Assembly (NCBI GenBank): GCA_002167285.1
Contig: NHDG01000094.1
Location: forward strand, 1 to 63,123
Source: Planctomycetia bacterium TMED53
GTDB taxonomy: Bacteria; Planctomycetota; UBA8108; UBA1146
Reading direction: 5' to 3'
DNA length: 63,123 nt
Position numbers and translations under genes: made by a program. The notes beneath the pieces are model-generated. The model saw only the letters and a program-made list of their open reading frames with translations, searched no databases and was not told where the DNA came from. Within the stretch, counting starts at the first letter, position 1, and every line of letters starts with the position of its first letter. Shown in pieces: positions 35,352 to 41,454 of the stretch.

Positions 35352-35914
35352 TGTCTTGGATACGCCAGGGGAATCCCACAGACGAGCCTGGGGGGTTATT
35401 AGATCAAGTTTATTCGGCGGCGAAGACGAGGGCTGGTGACGTCGCAGAGATCCTCAAAGTGATGTCTTTGCGCCCAGATCTTTTGCAGTCCTTTATGCAA
35501 TTTTACGTTCAACTGATGAAGGGCCCCGGTGCCCTGACTACCGCTGAGCGCGAGTGGATCGCTGTATTGACCAGCGAGGCCAATAACTGCCATTACTGAA
35601 TCGAGTCCCACCTCAGAGATCTCGCTGCTCAAGAGGGTGGTGATCTTCTGGCTCGGTCGGTTCGGTCGAGTGAAGATTCAGGTGTCGTAGAAGTGAGTGA
35701 CAAAATGTCAGCTCTACGCAACTTCGTTTTAAAAATCGCCAAGCTCTCAGAGGCGACCTCCGAGGAGGATCTTCAGTTGCTTAGGGATCATGGATTTTCC
35801 GATGAGCAGATTCTCGAGGTGATCCATGTCGTTGGGTTTTTCTGCCATATCAACAGGGTTGCTGAGGCCACCGGAGTAGACCTGGAGTCATGGATGAAGC
35901 CCTATGAGCCCTAG
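35348..35914 (+). CDS. AhpD-like peroxidase-related protein, candidate selenoprotein (in-frame TGA as Sec84)
   Basis: The frame is interrupted by one TGA at 35597-35599 and then stays open to 35914, giving 188 residues. The first 83 end in SEANNCHY, and translation past the TGA gives IESHLRDLA. In the AhpD/carboxymuconolactone decarboxylase-like family ('uncharacterised peroxidase-related enzyme') this site reads E-...-C-X2-C-X3-H. Here C81, the TGA (84) and H88 fall exactly at C, C and H, so selenocysteine giving C-X2-U is the simplest reading. The C-terminal half (residues 110-188) is a normal family sequence. AhpD-like Sec proteins are known from marine metagenome surveys. A hairpin follows the TGA (35614-35650). 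Alternatives are a nonsense mutation or a sequence error. It overlaps aroC by ATGA. Confidence 0.85.
35614..35650 (+). promoter_or_regulatory. Candidate SECIS hairpin of the AhpD-like gene
   Basis: CAGAGATC (35614-35621) pairs with GATCTTCTG (35642-35650), leaving one bulged T, starting 14 nt after the TGA. Inside, GCTGCTC (35624-35630) can pair with GGGTGGT (35635-35641) using several G-T wobbles, leaving loop AAGA 31 nt after the TGA. A bulged U and this distance fit bacterial SECIS elements. The apical loop does not show the usual GGU, and an alternative fold pairs CCACCTC (35608-35614) with GAGGGTGG (35633-35640), so this is weaker than the second element. Confidence 0.5.
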
Positions 35915-36089
35915 AGGGCGGCTGGGTGCTTAATAGCGCCTGTATGCAGATCTTCGGCGTGAAGAATGATTGCGCCTGAAATAGGCACTCGCCTGCGTTA
36001 CCATGGGAATAGGCCCTTGAGATTGGAATCATGGAACTCCGGATATTAGCCGGATCGTTTACCAGCCAGTCTTTTTGAAGGAGAACCTG
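35915..36089 (+). other. Intergenic region between the two selenoprotein candidates
   Basis: This 175-nt gap separates the AhpD-like gene from the membrane coiled-coil gene. No T-run terminator was seen. GAAGGAG at 36077-36083 serves ATG 36090. Confidence 0.4.
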
Positions 36090-37718
36090 ATGAGTGATTC
36101 GGAGACAAACAAGCTCGATCAGATGCTTCGACGTATTCGTCGGCGCACGACGATTGTTGCGACCTTCCGCTCACTAGAGGGTGCTCTTTGTTCTGTGCTT
36201 TTGATCTCCGCCCTTTTGATCGCCGTCGATCGCTTTTATGAACCGAGCACGGATTTGAACCAGAAGGTTTGGTTTGCTAGCACCGTTTTTGTGACATATC
36301 TGGCGACAGCGGCTATCAGGGCTGGCAAGTCTGACATCGCTGGTGCCGTTGAAGTTGAAAAGAACCAATCGATTCCGCAAACGATTTCGACAGCGATCTT
36401 CGCTAAGAAGGGCCAACTTCGAGATTCGACAGCGGAAAAAGTTTTGCAAGAGGCGCACAAGGTTTCCGAATCACTGGATGTTCAAAGAGCGCTTCCAGTT
36501 GGCACTATTCGTTTCGGCGTACCGACCCTGGTTTGCAGCTTGGTCTTTGCAGTGGCAATGGTTTTGCCTCCCATCGATTTGTTGGGGGTTCAGGCCGAGG
36601 TCGAAAATGATCGTAAGGAAAATGCCAGGGTGATGCGCAAGGAAAAAGCGCTAGTTCGCCGCCTAGATAAGGTCGAAGAGGTCGCCAAGAAGCACGCTTC
36701 TGAAGAGGTTCAAAAGACGATTCAAAAAGTTGCTGAGAATCAGAGAAAAAATCTTGAGAAATCGAAATCAAATCCTGATCAATGGAGAAGTTCTGAGGAT
36801 TTGAAGCAGCAATTGAAAGAACAAAAGTCCAGGGTCCTGTCGAGGAAGAAAACCACGGATACCGATGCTGCAAACAAGGCCGTCAGCCGTATGAACAAAG
36901 CGATCGATCAGATTCGACAGCAATCGACGCCTGAAATGAAACGACTCGCAAAGGCTTTGCAGGAGGATGACCCAGGAGAGTTGGCGACCGCTCTCGATGC
37001 GTTGGCGAAAAAGTTATCTTCTAATCCTTCGGCCCTCGGAGAAATGAAGGACACACTGGAGCAAATGCTGGGGGAAAAACTTGGTGGCAAACAGGGGCGT
37101 TCAGGTCAGCAGGGCCCCAAGGATGAAGGCCTGGTTGAAGACCTGGAGCAGCTTTCTCGAGCCCTGAAAGATTTAGCATTACTGGATCAGGTCAAGGATC
37201 AGCTGGAGTTCACAGAGGCTGAGTTGAGTCAGTTGGCGAAGGAGTGGCCCAAAGGAGAGCCTCCTGAGATTTGCCCCGATTGCTTGGCTGGGAAGTGTCA
37301 GGCCAAATCGGGTGGCACGTGAAGTGGCAACCCTTCCGGTGAGCGAGGTCTCGTTCACCTCACCAAGGAAAGTCAGAGTTCAAGTTCAACCGCTGGCAGC
37401 GGTTCGGGAGGTCAAATCCCTTCCCCCGGTGTCGGTACCAATCTTGGGCTCGGTGGTGGTCCTGTTGAGACTGGCGGGACTCCAGGGCAACTTAAGCCTG
37501 AGCAGCTGCCGGGTGGGGGATCCAATGGCCAGATCGTCTCGACCTTTTTGACTCGAGGAAAATCTCCGACCGGTGAAGTCAAGAAGGAGTTTGTCGAAGC
37601 CGTCCAAAGCAGCGGCAGGCTGGCGGAGTCGGAGATTGAAAAGCAACGACTTCCGGCCTCCTTGCGCAAAGTGACACGGGATTATTTTGACCGGCTGCAG
37701 GGTCGTACAGACGACTGA
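36090..37718 (+). CDS. Membrane-anchored coiled-coil protein, candidate novel selenoprotein (in-frame TGA as Sec411)
   Basis: One TGA at 37320-37322 interrupts a frame of 542 codons ending at TGA 37716-37718. Residues 28-50, 60-78 and about 141-163 are predicted membrane segments. About 170-400 is a charged coiled coil ending in CPDCLAGKC (about residues 396-404) and KSGGT. The Sec codon follows, then a Gly/Ser-rich stretch and a helical end LRKVTRDYFDRLQ. The post-TGA part is intact, and the final stop overlaps the next gene's ATG (TGATG at 37716-37720), which argues for real translation to this end. A 9-bp hairpin with loop GGTC lies 16-37 nt after the TGA. ATG 36090 has GAAGGAG. No function is known; the neighbours are NHL and VWA envelope proteins. 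A nonsense mutation is the main alternative. Confidence 0.72.
37338..37359 (+). promoter_or_regulatory. Candidate SECIS hairpin with GGTC apical loop
   Basis: GGTGAGCGA (37338-37346) pairs with TCGTTCACC (37351-37359), nine pairs with a single G-T wobble, closing the tetraloop GGTC (37347-37350). The loop begins 25 nt after the TGA at 37320-37322, within the 16-37 nt seen for bacterial SECIS elements. The E. coli fdhF element also presents GGUC in its loop. The stem lies inside the coding frame. Confidence 0.7.
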
Positions 37719-38683
37719 TGACTCCGATCTCGTGGGGCCCCCTATATTTTAAAAAGCACCTGCTCACCCGCGTTCTTTTTCCGCTGTGTATTTTTCTTTC
37801 CTCCTGCTCTGGAGTCGAAGGAGAAATAGATCTTCCCGATGTGACCTTGTTGGGAGGCCCTGGCAGGGGTGTCGGAAAGCTGTTTCAGCCGCGGGCGATT
37901 GCGACTCGGAAATCCGGTGGCTGTGTCATTATCGATCGCAGTGGTCGAGCCCAAGTCTTCGATGCTTCAGGGAGTGTGACGATGGTCTGGGCGCTTCCAG
38001 AATGGTCGTCAGGTCACCCCATCGATCTCTGTGAAACCCCTGAGGGAACCTTTCTCGTTGCCGACACTCACTACATGAGGATTCTTGAATTCGACAAGGA
38101 TGGAGTGGAGATCCGTCGTTTCGGAGAGGGGAGTGGCCTCGAATTGGTTCGTGGGATAGATCTCGCTGCAGATGGCACCATCTACGTGGCGTCCTACGGA
38201 GAACACGATCGAATCTTTAAATTTTCCAGAAGTGGTGAGTTCCTTGGATTTTGGGGTGAACGTGGGGATGGAACAGACCAGTTTCTTCGACCGGAGGGCC
38301 TGGCAGTTGCTCCGGATAGTTCCATCTTGGTGGTCGATTGTGGGCACCAGAGGGTCTTGCGCTTTAGCGTAGACGGACAGCTACTCCAGCAAATCGGTGG
38401 ACCCGGACCAGGGAAGGGCAAATTCCAAGTTCCTTTTGATATTGATGTCCTCGAAGACGGAACCATTCTGGTAGTTGACAGATCAGGGTGTCGCTTACAG
38501 ATTTTTTCAGCAGCTGGAGAGAGCCTCGCTGAGTTTGGGGGCTTAGGCAGAGGAAGAGGTCGATTGCATGAACCCCGGGGTATCGCCGCGGTAAAGCGGG
38601 GGGCAGTGGTAGAGGTATTCATCGCGGATACTGGGAATAATCGAATTAGTACTTTTGTGCTTTCAGGAGAGGAGCTGAGGTGA
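37718..38683 (+). CDS. NHL-repeat lipoprotein (six-bladed propeller)
   Basis: A 321-residue exported lipoprotein. The signal has a lipobox LSSC ending at C30. Residues 45-320 form NHL/SMP-type propeller blades, e.g. FQPRAIATRKSGGCVIIDR, PIDLCETPEGTFLVADT, RPEGLAVAPDSSILVVDCG, VPFDIDVLEDGTILVVDR and EPRGIAAVKRGAVVEVFIADTGNNRI. Propellers of this type usually bind peptides or sugars or act as scaffolds. Its ATG overlaps the stop of the candidate selenoprotein (TGATG) and its stop overlaps the VWA gene (GTGA), so the three are one translational unit. Confidence 0.85.
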   Translation: MTPISWGPLYFKKHLLTRVLFPLCIFLSSCSGVEGEIDLPDVTLLGGPGRGVGKLFQPRAIATRKSGGCVIIDRSGRAQVFDASGSVTMVWALPEWSSGHPIDLCETPEGTFLVADTHYMRILEFDKDGVEIRRFGEGSGLELVRGIDLAADGTIYVASYGEHDRIFKFSRSGEFLGFWGERGDGTDQFLRPEGLAVAPDSSILVVDCGHQRVLRFSVDGQLLQQIGGPGPGKGKFQVPFDIDVLEDGTILVVDRSGCRLQIFSAAGESLAEFGGLGRGRGRLHEPRGIAAVKRGAVVEVFIADTGNNRISTFVLSGEELR

Positions 38684-41454
38684 CCAGCATCGATTTTGCA
38701 CAGCCTTGGATCCTGCTGTGGGCTTTACCCGCACTTGCGATCACATTCTGGCTGTGGCGGTCGAGCAGGGCTTCCACTTCTCCACAAGTACGAAACTCTT
38801 CCCTTACATTGAGAGTTGTAGCTGTTCTGCTGTTGGTCGCCAGTTTAGCAGGAGTGTCCCTCGACCGTGATGGTGACGGGCTAACTCTCGTAATCCTCAG
38901 AGATCTTTCCGATTCGGTATCAAGGCTCGAAACAGACGCGGCACTGGAAGAGATCTCCCGCAGACTGGGAACTCTGAAGACCCCCGATCAAGTGGCTTTG
39001 ATTTCTTTTGGCGGTGACCCGGCACTCGAACAGGGTTTGGCACTTCGCTTAGGGCCTGGAAAACAGGTCACTCTCGACCAATCTGCAACCGATATCAGTT
39101 CGGCTTTCCGATATGCAGCCAGCTTTTTGTCTGCAAATGCACCCGGTGGAGGAAAGCGCGTCATTCTGTTGAGTGATGGTAATCCCACTGAAGGCGATGT
39201 GATCAGGGAGGCGCGGAATCTTGCGGTGGCAGGGATATCGGTAGACGTTTGGCCATTGATCTATGACCGGGTGAATGAAGTTTTATTGGAGTCAGTATCT
39301 GCACCTCAAGAGGTTGAACCTGGTCAAACATATGAAATCGATGCGGTGATCGAATCGACCGTTGATACGACGGCAATGGTCACGCTCCTTGAAGGAAATT
39401 CTGCGATTGCGACGAAAGAGGTCCTCGTCGGCGCAGGTAGAAACCGTGTTTCATTTCCGGTTATTTCAGAAAAAGGCACGAAGCGGTTTCAGATTTTGTT
39501 GGAGCCTGCTGAGGGAACAGATTCGATCCAGGTGAATAATGCCGGTTCTGTTCTGGTGACTTCCCGGGAAAATTCGAGAGTGCTACTTGTCTCCGCTGAT
39601 GGGCAATCGCCCATTGGGGAATACCTGTCAGGGTCACAAATATTGGTGGAGCAGATACCCGTCTCCGGTCTCTCCTCTGTGGTCACCGATTACACGAATT
39701 ATTCAGCGGTGATATTGGACAATGTCTCGTACTTTTCGATGCGCAAGGAGACAGCTCAACTGTTGGAGCGATTGGTTTATTCCAATGGATTAGGGCTGCT
39801 GATGGTTGGAGGTGCCGATTCTTTTGGCGCAGGTGGTTGGAAAGGTACTCCAGTCGAAGAAGCATTGCCTGTGACGATGGATATTCGCCAAAGGAAAATC
39901 ATTCCTAATGGAGCACTCGCGATCATCTTGCATACCTGTGAGTTTCCTCAAGGAAATTTGTGGGCACGACAGATCAGTATGAGTGCTTTGGATGCTCTCA
40001 CTGCAAAAGATTACTTTGGTCTTTTGATCTACAAAAATGGTGTCGATGGCTGGGGCATCCCGATGAGGCTGTGTGAAGACAAGGAATCACTCAAGAGCAT
40101 CATCAATACCCTGTCTCCTGAAGACATGCTTCAATTTACGCCTTCGATGCAGCTGGCCCTCACTGGGCTTAACTCTGTCGACGCATACTCTAAACACATG
40201 ATTATCATCTCGGATGGGGATCCCGTATTACCCAGCGAAGCCCTACTTCAGGGGTACGTGGATCAGGGGATCAAAATTTCGACAATTTGCATTCAGCCGC
40301 ACTCGGGACAATTCCCAGAGCTGACTTTGCGAAAGATTGCGAAGACGACCGGTGGCCGCTTTTACAGAATGGATGACCCCACTCAGCTTCCCAGAATCTT
40401 TTTTAGGGAAGCATTGCAGGTGCGAAAAAACCTGATCGATGAAAGTACTTTTCAACCGGTTATTGGTGAGAGTGCCGGTCCAATACAGGGTCTCGACTCC
40501 TTTCCTCCAATCGAGGGAATCGTGTTGACCACGACCAAGCCACTCGCAACGGAGGTTTTGCTGAATGATGAGGAGGATCCTCTGGTGTCACTGTATCGCC
40601 ACGGCATCGGCATCAGTGCGGTATTCACCAGTGATTCAGGGGAGCGATGGAGCTCGGCATGGTCCGGTTGGGAGGGGAATCCTACATTTTGGGCTCAAAT
40701 GGTGAGGACGATTTCTCGGCCTGATGATTCAGGGGCTCTCCAGGCGGTGACTAAAGTCGATGGGCGTGGTGGTGTAATCTTGCTCGATGCCATCGATGAA
40801 GCGGGCCAATTTGTCGATGGGCTTGATCTCAAAGGGAGTGTTATCAATCCCGATTTGAAGAGTCAAGAGATTGAAATCACTCAAGATGGTCCAGGTCGAT
40901 ACATCGGAAATTTTCCGGTTCGGCAGCAAGGAGATTATCTCGTTCGAATAGAAGGAGCATTTCCTGATGGTAGCAGCGCTGGATTGACGCGAACTTTTTC
41001 AGTGGGATACCCCGCTGAATTTAGATCATTGCGATCCGATGAAGAACTTCTGGGAGAGATCGCTCTCGAATCAGGTGGTCGAATCATCGATGATCAGACG
41101 GACTTGTTGGAGCGAAGTAGTAATATTTCCAGCAGTCAGCAACCGTTGTGGCCGTTGTTGATTCGCGTTGCGCTGTTACTCTTTTTTGTCGATGTGGTGA
41201 TTCGAAGAATCCACTTTGGACCGCTGACTTCCAAGACAGCTGATTCGGCGACTACTGTGACAGAGACTCAGACCTCCACCATCGCGGCAAAGGGGAGAGA
41301 TCCCATCCTCAGTCGCAAGCCGCTGAGGGTGGCTCCTCCCGCCGAGAAACCGGCGACCGAGGCCGAAGTGACTGCTGAAGAGGAGAGCGGCGATCTCAAA
41401 GCTCTGCTGAAGGCCCGTAAACGGTCGCAAAGAGGGCATAAAGACGGAAAGTGA
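38680..41454 (+). CDS. VWA-domain membrane protein with glutamine amidotransferase-like fold
   Basis: A 924-residue inner-membrane protein. Two N-terminal membrane segments (about 8-27 and 40-58) precede a von Willebrand A domain with MIDAS DLSDS and SDGNPTEGD, then a class I glutamine amidotransferase-like region (SYFSMRKETAQLL ... LMVGGADSFGAGGWKGTPVE) without a recognisable catalytic cysteine, a second VWA-like segment (IIISDGDPV), Ig-like sheets and a C-terminal membrane segment (about 828-845) with a basic tail. Such proteins occur in Planctomycetota operons near MoxR and DUF58 genes, but those partners are absent here. It starts with GTG overlapping the NHL gene. Confidence 0.85.
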   Translation: MTSIDFAQPWILLWALPALAITFWLWRSSRASTSPQVRNSSLTLRVVAVLLLVASLAGVSLDRDGDGLTLVILRDLSDSVSRLETDAALEEISRRLGTLKTPDQVALISFGGDPALEQGLALRLGPGKQVTLDQSATDISSAFRYAASFLSANAPGGGKRVILLSDGNPTEGDVIREARNLAVAGISVDVWPLIYDRVNEVLLESVSAPQEVEPGQTYEIDAVIESTVDTTAMVTLLEGNSAIATKEVLVGAGRNRVSFPVISEKGTKRFQILLEPAEGTDSIQVNNAGSVLVTSRENSRVLLVSADGQSPIGEYLSGSQILVEQIPVSGLSSVVTDYTNYSAVILDNVSYFSMRKETAQLLERLVYSNGLGLLMVGGADSFGAGGWKGTPVEEALPVTMDIRQRKIIPNGALAIILHTCEFPQGNLWARQISMSALDALTAKDYFGLLIYKNGVDGWGIPMRLCEDKESLKSIINTLSPEDMLQFTPSMQLALTGLNSVDAYSKHMIIISDGDPVLPSEALLQGYVDQGIKISTICIQPHSGQFPELTLRKIAKTTGGRFYRMDDPTQLPRIFFREALQVRKNLIDESTFQPVIGESAGPIQGLDSFPPIEGIVLTTTKPLATEVLLNDEEDPLVSLYRHGIGISAVFTSDSGERWSSAWSGWEGNPTFWAQMVRTISRPDDSGALQAVTKVDGRGGVILLDAIDEAGQFVDGLDLKGSVINPDLKSQEIEITQDGPGRYIGNFPVRQQGDYLVRIEGAFPDGSSAGLTRTFSVGYPAEFRSLRSDEELLGEIALESGGRIIDDQTDLLERSSNISSSQQPLWPLLIRVALLLFFVDVVIRRIHFGPLTSKTADSATTVTETQTSTIAAKGRDPILSRKPLRVAPPAEKPATEAEVTAEEESGDLKALLKARKRSQRGHKDGK

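Follow-up and report, generated by a model that had tools for sequence, protein, structure and literature searches.

A conserved family of predicted membrane coiled-coil selenoproteins in Planctomycetota

An in-frame TGA at codon 411

The window analysed here is the whole stretch of 63,123 nucleotides, and the gene, its parts and its two downstream neighbours lie on its plus strand. The frame from 36090 to 37718 contains a single internal TGA, at 37320–37322 (codon 411), which raises the question of whether this codon ends the protein or is read as selenocysteine (Sec). A sequence-only reading of this DNA had favoured Sec at residue 411, a proposal that is now supported by comparative evidence from the selenocysteine machinery, the homologues and a downstream hairpin. 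Selenium insertion was not assayed; on the comparative evidence, decoding of UGA411 as Sec appears very nearly certain. The particulars of that reading were also borne out in the frame. The TGA is followed by 131 open codons up to the true stop (TGA, 37716–37718), the A of this stop also opens the ATG of the following gene (a TGATG overlap), and 7 codons separate codon 411 from the motif CPDCLAGKC (residues 395–403, 37272–37298), which places three Cys beside Sec411 and is supported by conservation in an alignment of 21 family members (A1). The gene starts with ATG at 36090, with AAGGAG at 36078–36083. Translated through the TGA, the coding sequence (36090–37718) gives 542 residues with Sec at 411, and homologues align with it over the full length.

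The interval upstream of the gene, about 740 bp between the gene for chorismate synthase and the selenoprotein gene (35352–36089), contains no ORF of at least 100 aa. A promoter and terminator scan returned no more sites than chance, including no promoter-like site beyond chance in this interval, and Rfam gave no match in the window at gathering thresholds.

TGA is the commonest stop codon of the window, ending 23 of its 40 genes, and a fraction of ribosomes terminates at any Sec codon. Both points would be compatible with a plain stop at codon 411, in which case a truncated protein of 410 residues would be made, and what lies beyond would be either a separate gene or a remnant in decay. The same count speaks on another explanation, namely that UGA has been reassigned to Trp or Gly in this organism. 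The open frame alone would fit such a reassignment, but since TGA ends 23 of the 40 genes, the codon is not reassigned. Moreover, the residue aligned with codon 411 is mostly Cys and the genome has a tRNA-Sec gene whose anticodon is TCA, so that we give reassignment next to no chance.

Selenocysteine machinery and the downstream hairpin

The source genome is a marine Planctomycetota MAG of 2.98 Mb that is 83% complete. A search for selA, selB, selC and selD, which had been suggested as a check, found the complete set: SelB (360 bits), SelA (526 bits), SelD (350 bits) and a tRNA-Sec (67.5 bits) that was also called by ARAGORN. The genes selA, selD and selC are neighbours on a single contig. SelD (L047, contig C8:19509–20435 of genome G000) is itself a selenoprotein with an in-frame TGA in the active-site loop (CAG-U-AAK). 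This TGA is followed by an 8-bp hairpin with the loop GGUCG; this loop type is thus also used by an established selenoprotein gene of the organism.

A SECIS-type hairpin was located at 37338–37359, where the sequence-only reading had described one. Its 9-bp stem is formed by 37338–37346 and 37351–37359 and encloses the loop GGUC at 37347–37350. The hairpin has the sequence GGTGAGCGA-GGTC-TCGTTCACC and begins 15 nt past the TGA. Folding of the TGA region, another of the suggested checks, gave −17.8 kcal/mol for the hairpin within 46 nt (z −2.07). The published model of bacterial SECIS elements (bSECIS) requires a loop of 3–9 nt on a stem of 4–16 bp, a G in the first two loop positions, a distance of 16–37 nt from the UGA and an MFE of at most −7.5 kcal/mol (PMC13188914). 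These constraints are met by the window hairpin, with its GGUC loop beginning 25 nt after UGA411 (24 nt in between), its 9 bp and its −14.2 kcal/mol when folded alone. When all 2,550 TGAs of the window were considered, both strands included, that of codon 411 was the only one followed in SECIS register by a GGTC loop on a stem of at least 5 bp.

The hairpin was then compared across the family and against three controls. A stem of at least 6 bp (loop of 3–5 nt, starting 17–29 nt downstream) follows 45 of the 57 in-frame TGAs of the family. In the controls the proportion was 10.7% (other codons), 9.5% (GC-matched codons) and 8% (Cys codons of TGA-free homologues). A GGUC loop on at least 5 bp is found after 22 of the 57 TGAs but after only 7 of 21,223 other codons, and after none of 6,814 GC-matched codons or 142 Cys codons of TGA-free homologues. 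The 22 sites span about ten family-level lineages. Because related genes are not independent, we do not rely on p-values of these counts. Covariation was assessed on 18 distinct hairpins with GGUC or AGUU loops. Changes on both sides were observed at all nine pairs, and the score was 0.728, compared with 0.223 for shuffled and at most 0.26 for slid pairings. Because these 18 hairpins had been selected for loop and stem, the score is inflated, a bias that does not affect the counts for the full set of 57 sites. By these comparisons the predicted hairpin is conserved across the family, which argues against a plain stop at codon 411.

In the mechanism that we propose, SelB and tRNA-Sec(UCA) would bind the GGUC-loop hairpin downstream of UGA411, and the ribosome would insert Sec at 411 and continue to the true stop at 37716. 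Insertion would thus be of the standard bacterial kind. The locus shares with bacterial SelB/bSECIS selenoproteins the in-frame UGA, a hairpin 16–37 nt downstream with an early-loop G, the presence of SelA, SelB, SelC and SelD, and Cys homologues (PMC13188914).

Sec, Cys and other states among homologues

A homologue is present in 6 of 6 other sampled genomes of the genus, in 8 of 9 genomes of the same family and in one genome of the same order. TGA occupies site 411 in all 15 of the other homologues sampled at these three levels, and the same-order homologue has it at the aligned site despite only 29% identity. Neither the family gene nor SelA was matched in the ninth family genome (G007); SelB is present in it. 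The sequence-only reading had advised confirming the TGA independently, and the codon does recur in independent assemblies, so that it is no sequencing error. With its recurrence in homologues as well, sequencing error, pseudogene and split gene were all rejected as explanations.

A profile of 21 members detected the family in 180 of 392 genomes of the phylum. Family loci also occur in published assemblies, mostly titled Planctomycetota, Planctomycetes or Planctomycetia; a scan of the contigs of these assemblies with a single protein returned no match, and alignment A2 recovered 12 loci there. One MAG titled Bacillota (L123, QNYK01000107.1) has a close family member on the same contig as genome G013, which belongs to the family of the window's organism; its title is probably a mislabel.

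Among the 69 family members examined, 38 carry one to three in-frame TGAs, 57 in total, and no internal TAA or TAG was found in these or in the other members. In alignment A1, all 21 members have Cys or Sec in the column of residue 411, C395 and C398 are invariant, and residue 403 is nearly invariant as Cys or Sec. Of the 31 non-Sec members, 27 have a Cys in the aligned segment, among them every one of the 12 from SelA-negative genomes. Homologues therefore show TGA or, mostly, Cys at the site, the pattern that had been named in advance as supporting Sec. The remaining four non-Sec members lack Cys in that segment, and two of these have none after residue 300, indicating that a thiol or selenol is not essential in every relative.

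The region past the TGA also behaves as coding sequence. In most close pairs, post-TGA changes are mostly synonymous or at the third position. The C-terminal end had been noted as coding-like and helical; it forms a predicted helical domain (residues 496–536, 37575–37697) with conserved helices at 496–518 and 523–536, and the domain is kept, without a preceding stop, in the Cys homologues that lack the TGA. A plain stop would leave these features unaccounted for, as well as the maintenance of TGA, never TAA or TAG, at the site across families and many lineages. We consider termination at codon 411 as the gene's normal outcome very improbable and continue with the Sec reading.

Consistent with this reading, 36 of the 38 genomes with a TGA form have a SelA above the cut-off; one of the other two has SelB and the other a SelA fragment at a contig end. 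For genomes with TGA-free members the figure was 19 of 35 (Fisher p 7e-5, uncorrected for kinship), and none of the 16 SelA-negative genomes in this 35-genome comparison has the TGA form. With the Sec segment left out, the family tree contains 12 parsimonious changes between Sec and non-Sec states, at least 7 of them on well-supported branches. The tree is unrooted, so that gain and loss cannot be distinguished, and the pairs informative for an independent-pairs test of Sec against SelA were too few. With Sec and non-Sec homologues, and genomes with and without the machinery, on one tree with about 12 switches, the family offers a natural experiment on selenium versus sulfur.

Several members have more than one Sec codon. 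Two Sec codons, 7–12 codons apart, were found in L023–L028, L030, L034, L036, L038 and L040. Three in-frame TGAs occur in L077 and L078 (CPSU..GU..GU), where a hairpin follows each TGA and the last hairpin has a GGUC loop in both genes. In ten of the two-Sec genes (L023–L028, L030, L034, L036 and L040), the best hairpin that follows the first UGA has the second UGA at its apex; one Sec codon thus lies inside the putative SECIS loop of the other. That the nested second UGA serves SelB binding is an inference. In L025 and L028, the stem after the second TGA is imperfect. Processive Sec insertion in bacteria becomes open to testing in such members, with their two or three Sec and overlapping hairpins.

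None of the 119 selenoprotein families and subfamilies in the 2026 catalogue fits the window protein, and none listed there is a membrane coiled-coil protein with a GGTU arm (PMC13188914). Matches of the 21 A1 members to NCBIfam 20.0 and Pfam included no selenoprotein-family model. An earlier listing of a single member among planctomycete candidates (PMC4807772) is not excluded. Judged from sequence comparison, these proteins constitute a conserved, uncatalogued family of bacterial selenoproteins. Unlike most known selenoproteins, they would bring to the bacterial repertoire a membrane coiled coil that lacks a recognisable enzyme domain and bears Sec on a flexible arm. Since standard gene callers stop at TGA, proteins of this family are probably truncated in annotated planctomycete genomes.

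Protein architecture, neighbouring genes and inferred role

The predicted order of the protein is three membrane helices, a long helical coiled coil, a Gly-rich disordered arm and the C-terminal helical domain. The membrane helices span residues of about 28–46, 57–79 and 147–165 (36171–36584); they are seen in the structure model, and the hydropathy recurs in related members. The Gly-rich segment (residues 403–494, 37296–37571) starts beside CPDCLAGKC and contains GGTUSG with Sec411; it is predicted to be disordered, with pLDDT below 50. The motifs of the arm are CxxC, C and GGTU. In L084, L087 and L088, Sec occurs in UxxC (URGC, UEGC and URGC, respectively), elsewhere on the arm than GGTU, and relatives have CxxC there. 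We hold with high confidence that the window protein is a selenoprotein whose Sec lies on the flexible arm of a membrane coiled-coil protein. The structure model had a mean pLDDT of 65, too weak for a fold search. No Pfam or NCBIfam model scored above cut-off for the window protein. A match to PDB 7bqs ('Nomur') at E 0.008 was weak, confined to the coiled coil and not informative. Unlike Trx-fold selenoproteins, the window protein has no Trx domain match, and its Sec region is predicted to be disordered.

Placement of the coiled coil and arm on the extracytoplasmic face is fairly likely, because the protein has three membrane helices and a positive N-terminus and the next gene is lipoprotein-like. 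The charges past the third helix are balanced, which leaves the topology open.

Sec is generally employed for redox reactivity, and we lean towards a redox role for Sec411, although this is inferred. U411 and C395, C398 or C403 may form a reversible selenenylsulfide or disulfide on the flexible arm, outside the cytoplasm. The main alternative accepts a selenoprotein and assigns to the Cys/Sec arm the binding of a metal or metalloid (e.g., Zn, Cu, Hg or As), as a structural site or a sensor. Known selenoproteins do include metal-binding families. Furthermore, Cys-only relatives such as L039 have, in the same segment, CxxCxGxG runs resembling the zinc-binding domain of DnaJ (PF00684), and 1 of 21 members scanned matched Pfam DnaJ_CXXCXGXG at 1.3e-4. 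The window protein, in contrast, has no such repeats and no match to the model, and its arm has only three Cys and one Sec. The UxxC motif of several members (L081, L084, L087 and L088) is of redox type, and the general use of Sec also points away from metal binding, which we regard as unlikely without dismissing it. The most likely role, still an inference, is that of a thiol/selenol redox switch, belonging to an envelope complex and facing outside the cytoplasm.

This redox-switch reading draws on the neighbouring genes. The next gene (37718–38683) encodes an NHL-repeat beta-propeller (Pfam NHL, 1e-18), a probable lipoprotein by the LSSC lipobox near its N-terminus. It is followed by a gene for a VWA/GATase1-like membrane protein (38680–41454; Pfam VWA 4.5e-12, GATase1_like 6e-13), a conserved neighbour that adjoins the family gene or lies one or two genes downstream in lineages f1, f4, f6, f32, f53 and f54. 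Positions of TGA-split family genes were taken from the profile search of phylum genomes. In lineage f53, MoxR and DUF58 come next after VWA, and at locus L133 the family gene is followed by the NHL propeller, the VWA protein, MoxR and DUF58. The order at L133 resembles that of the MoxR-vWA-beta-propeller ternary systems (PMC7159879, subsystem 4). The window locus differs in that no MoxR lies beside the gene, where vWA and NHL are present, and in that its VWA protein has a GATase1-like domain. The passages of PMC7159879 consulted describe no selenoprotein as a component of these systems. The bond on the arm would control, or serve to reduce, an envelope complex with the NHL propeller and the VWA/GATase protein, perhaps worked in some lineages by the AAA+ protein MoxR. 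We see the inferred link to a VWA-type complex as evenly balanced between true and false.

A functional parallel may be drawn with eukaryotic SELENOS (VIMP), which is membrane-bound, partly helical and has Cys and Sec on a disordered segment (PMC3628699), and whose AAA+ partner is p97 (PMC5725882). The window protein is predicted to share the membrane anchoring, the helical part and the disordered Cys/Sec segment, and the likeness is one of working only; no homology is claimed and no sequence relationship was shown. In SELENOS, Sec188 is the penultimate of 189 residues, whereas Sec411 of 542 lies 132 residues from the end of the window protein, which also has three predicted membrane helices. 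The broadest picture can be offered only tentatively and would be doubtful if taken as a whole: phylum-wide membrane coiled-coil selenoproteins with one to three Sec on a disordered arm, which would switch an AAA+/VWA envelope complex by redox chemistry in a manner functionally parallel to SELENOS, some having their second Sec codon nested within the first SECIS, at its apex.

The VWA partnership is not universal. Elsewhere in the family, the gene has ABC-2 transporter genes as neighbours, or a solute-binding ABC system, or a kinase accompanied by a SpoIIE phosphatase. At L135, L142 and L143, from three lineages, a solute-binding protein follows the family gene in place of NHL/VWA, and at two of these loci a binding-protein-dependent permease comes next.
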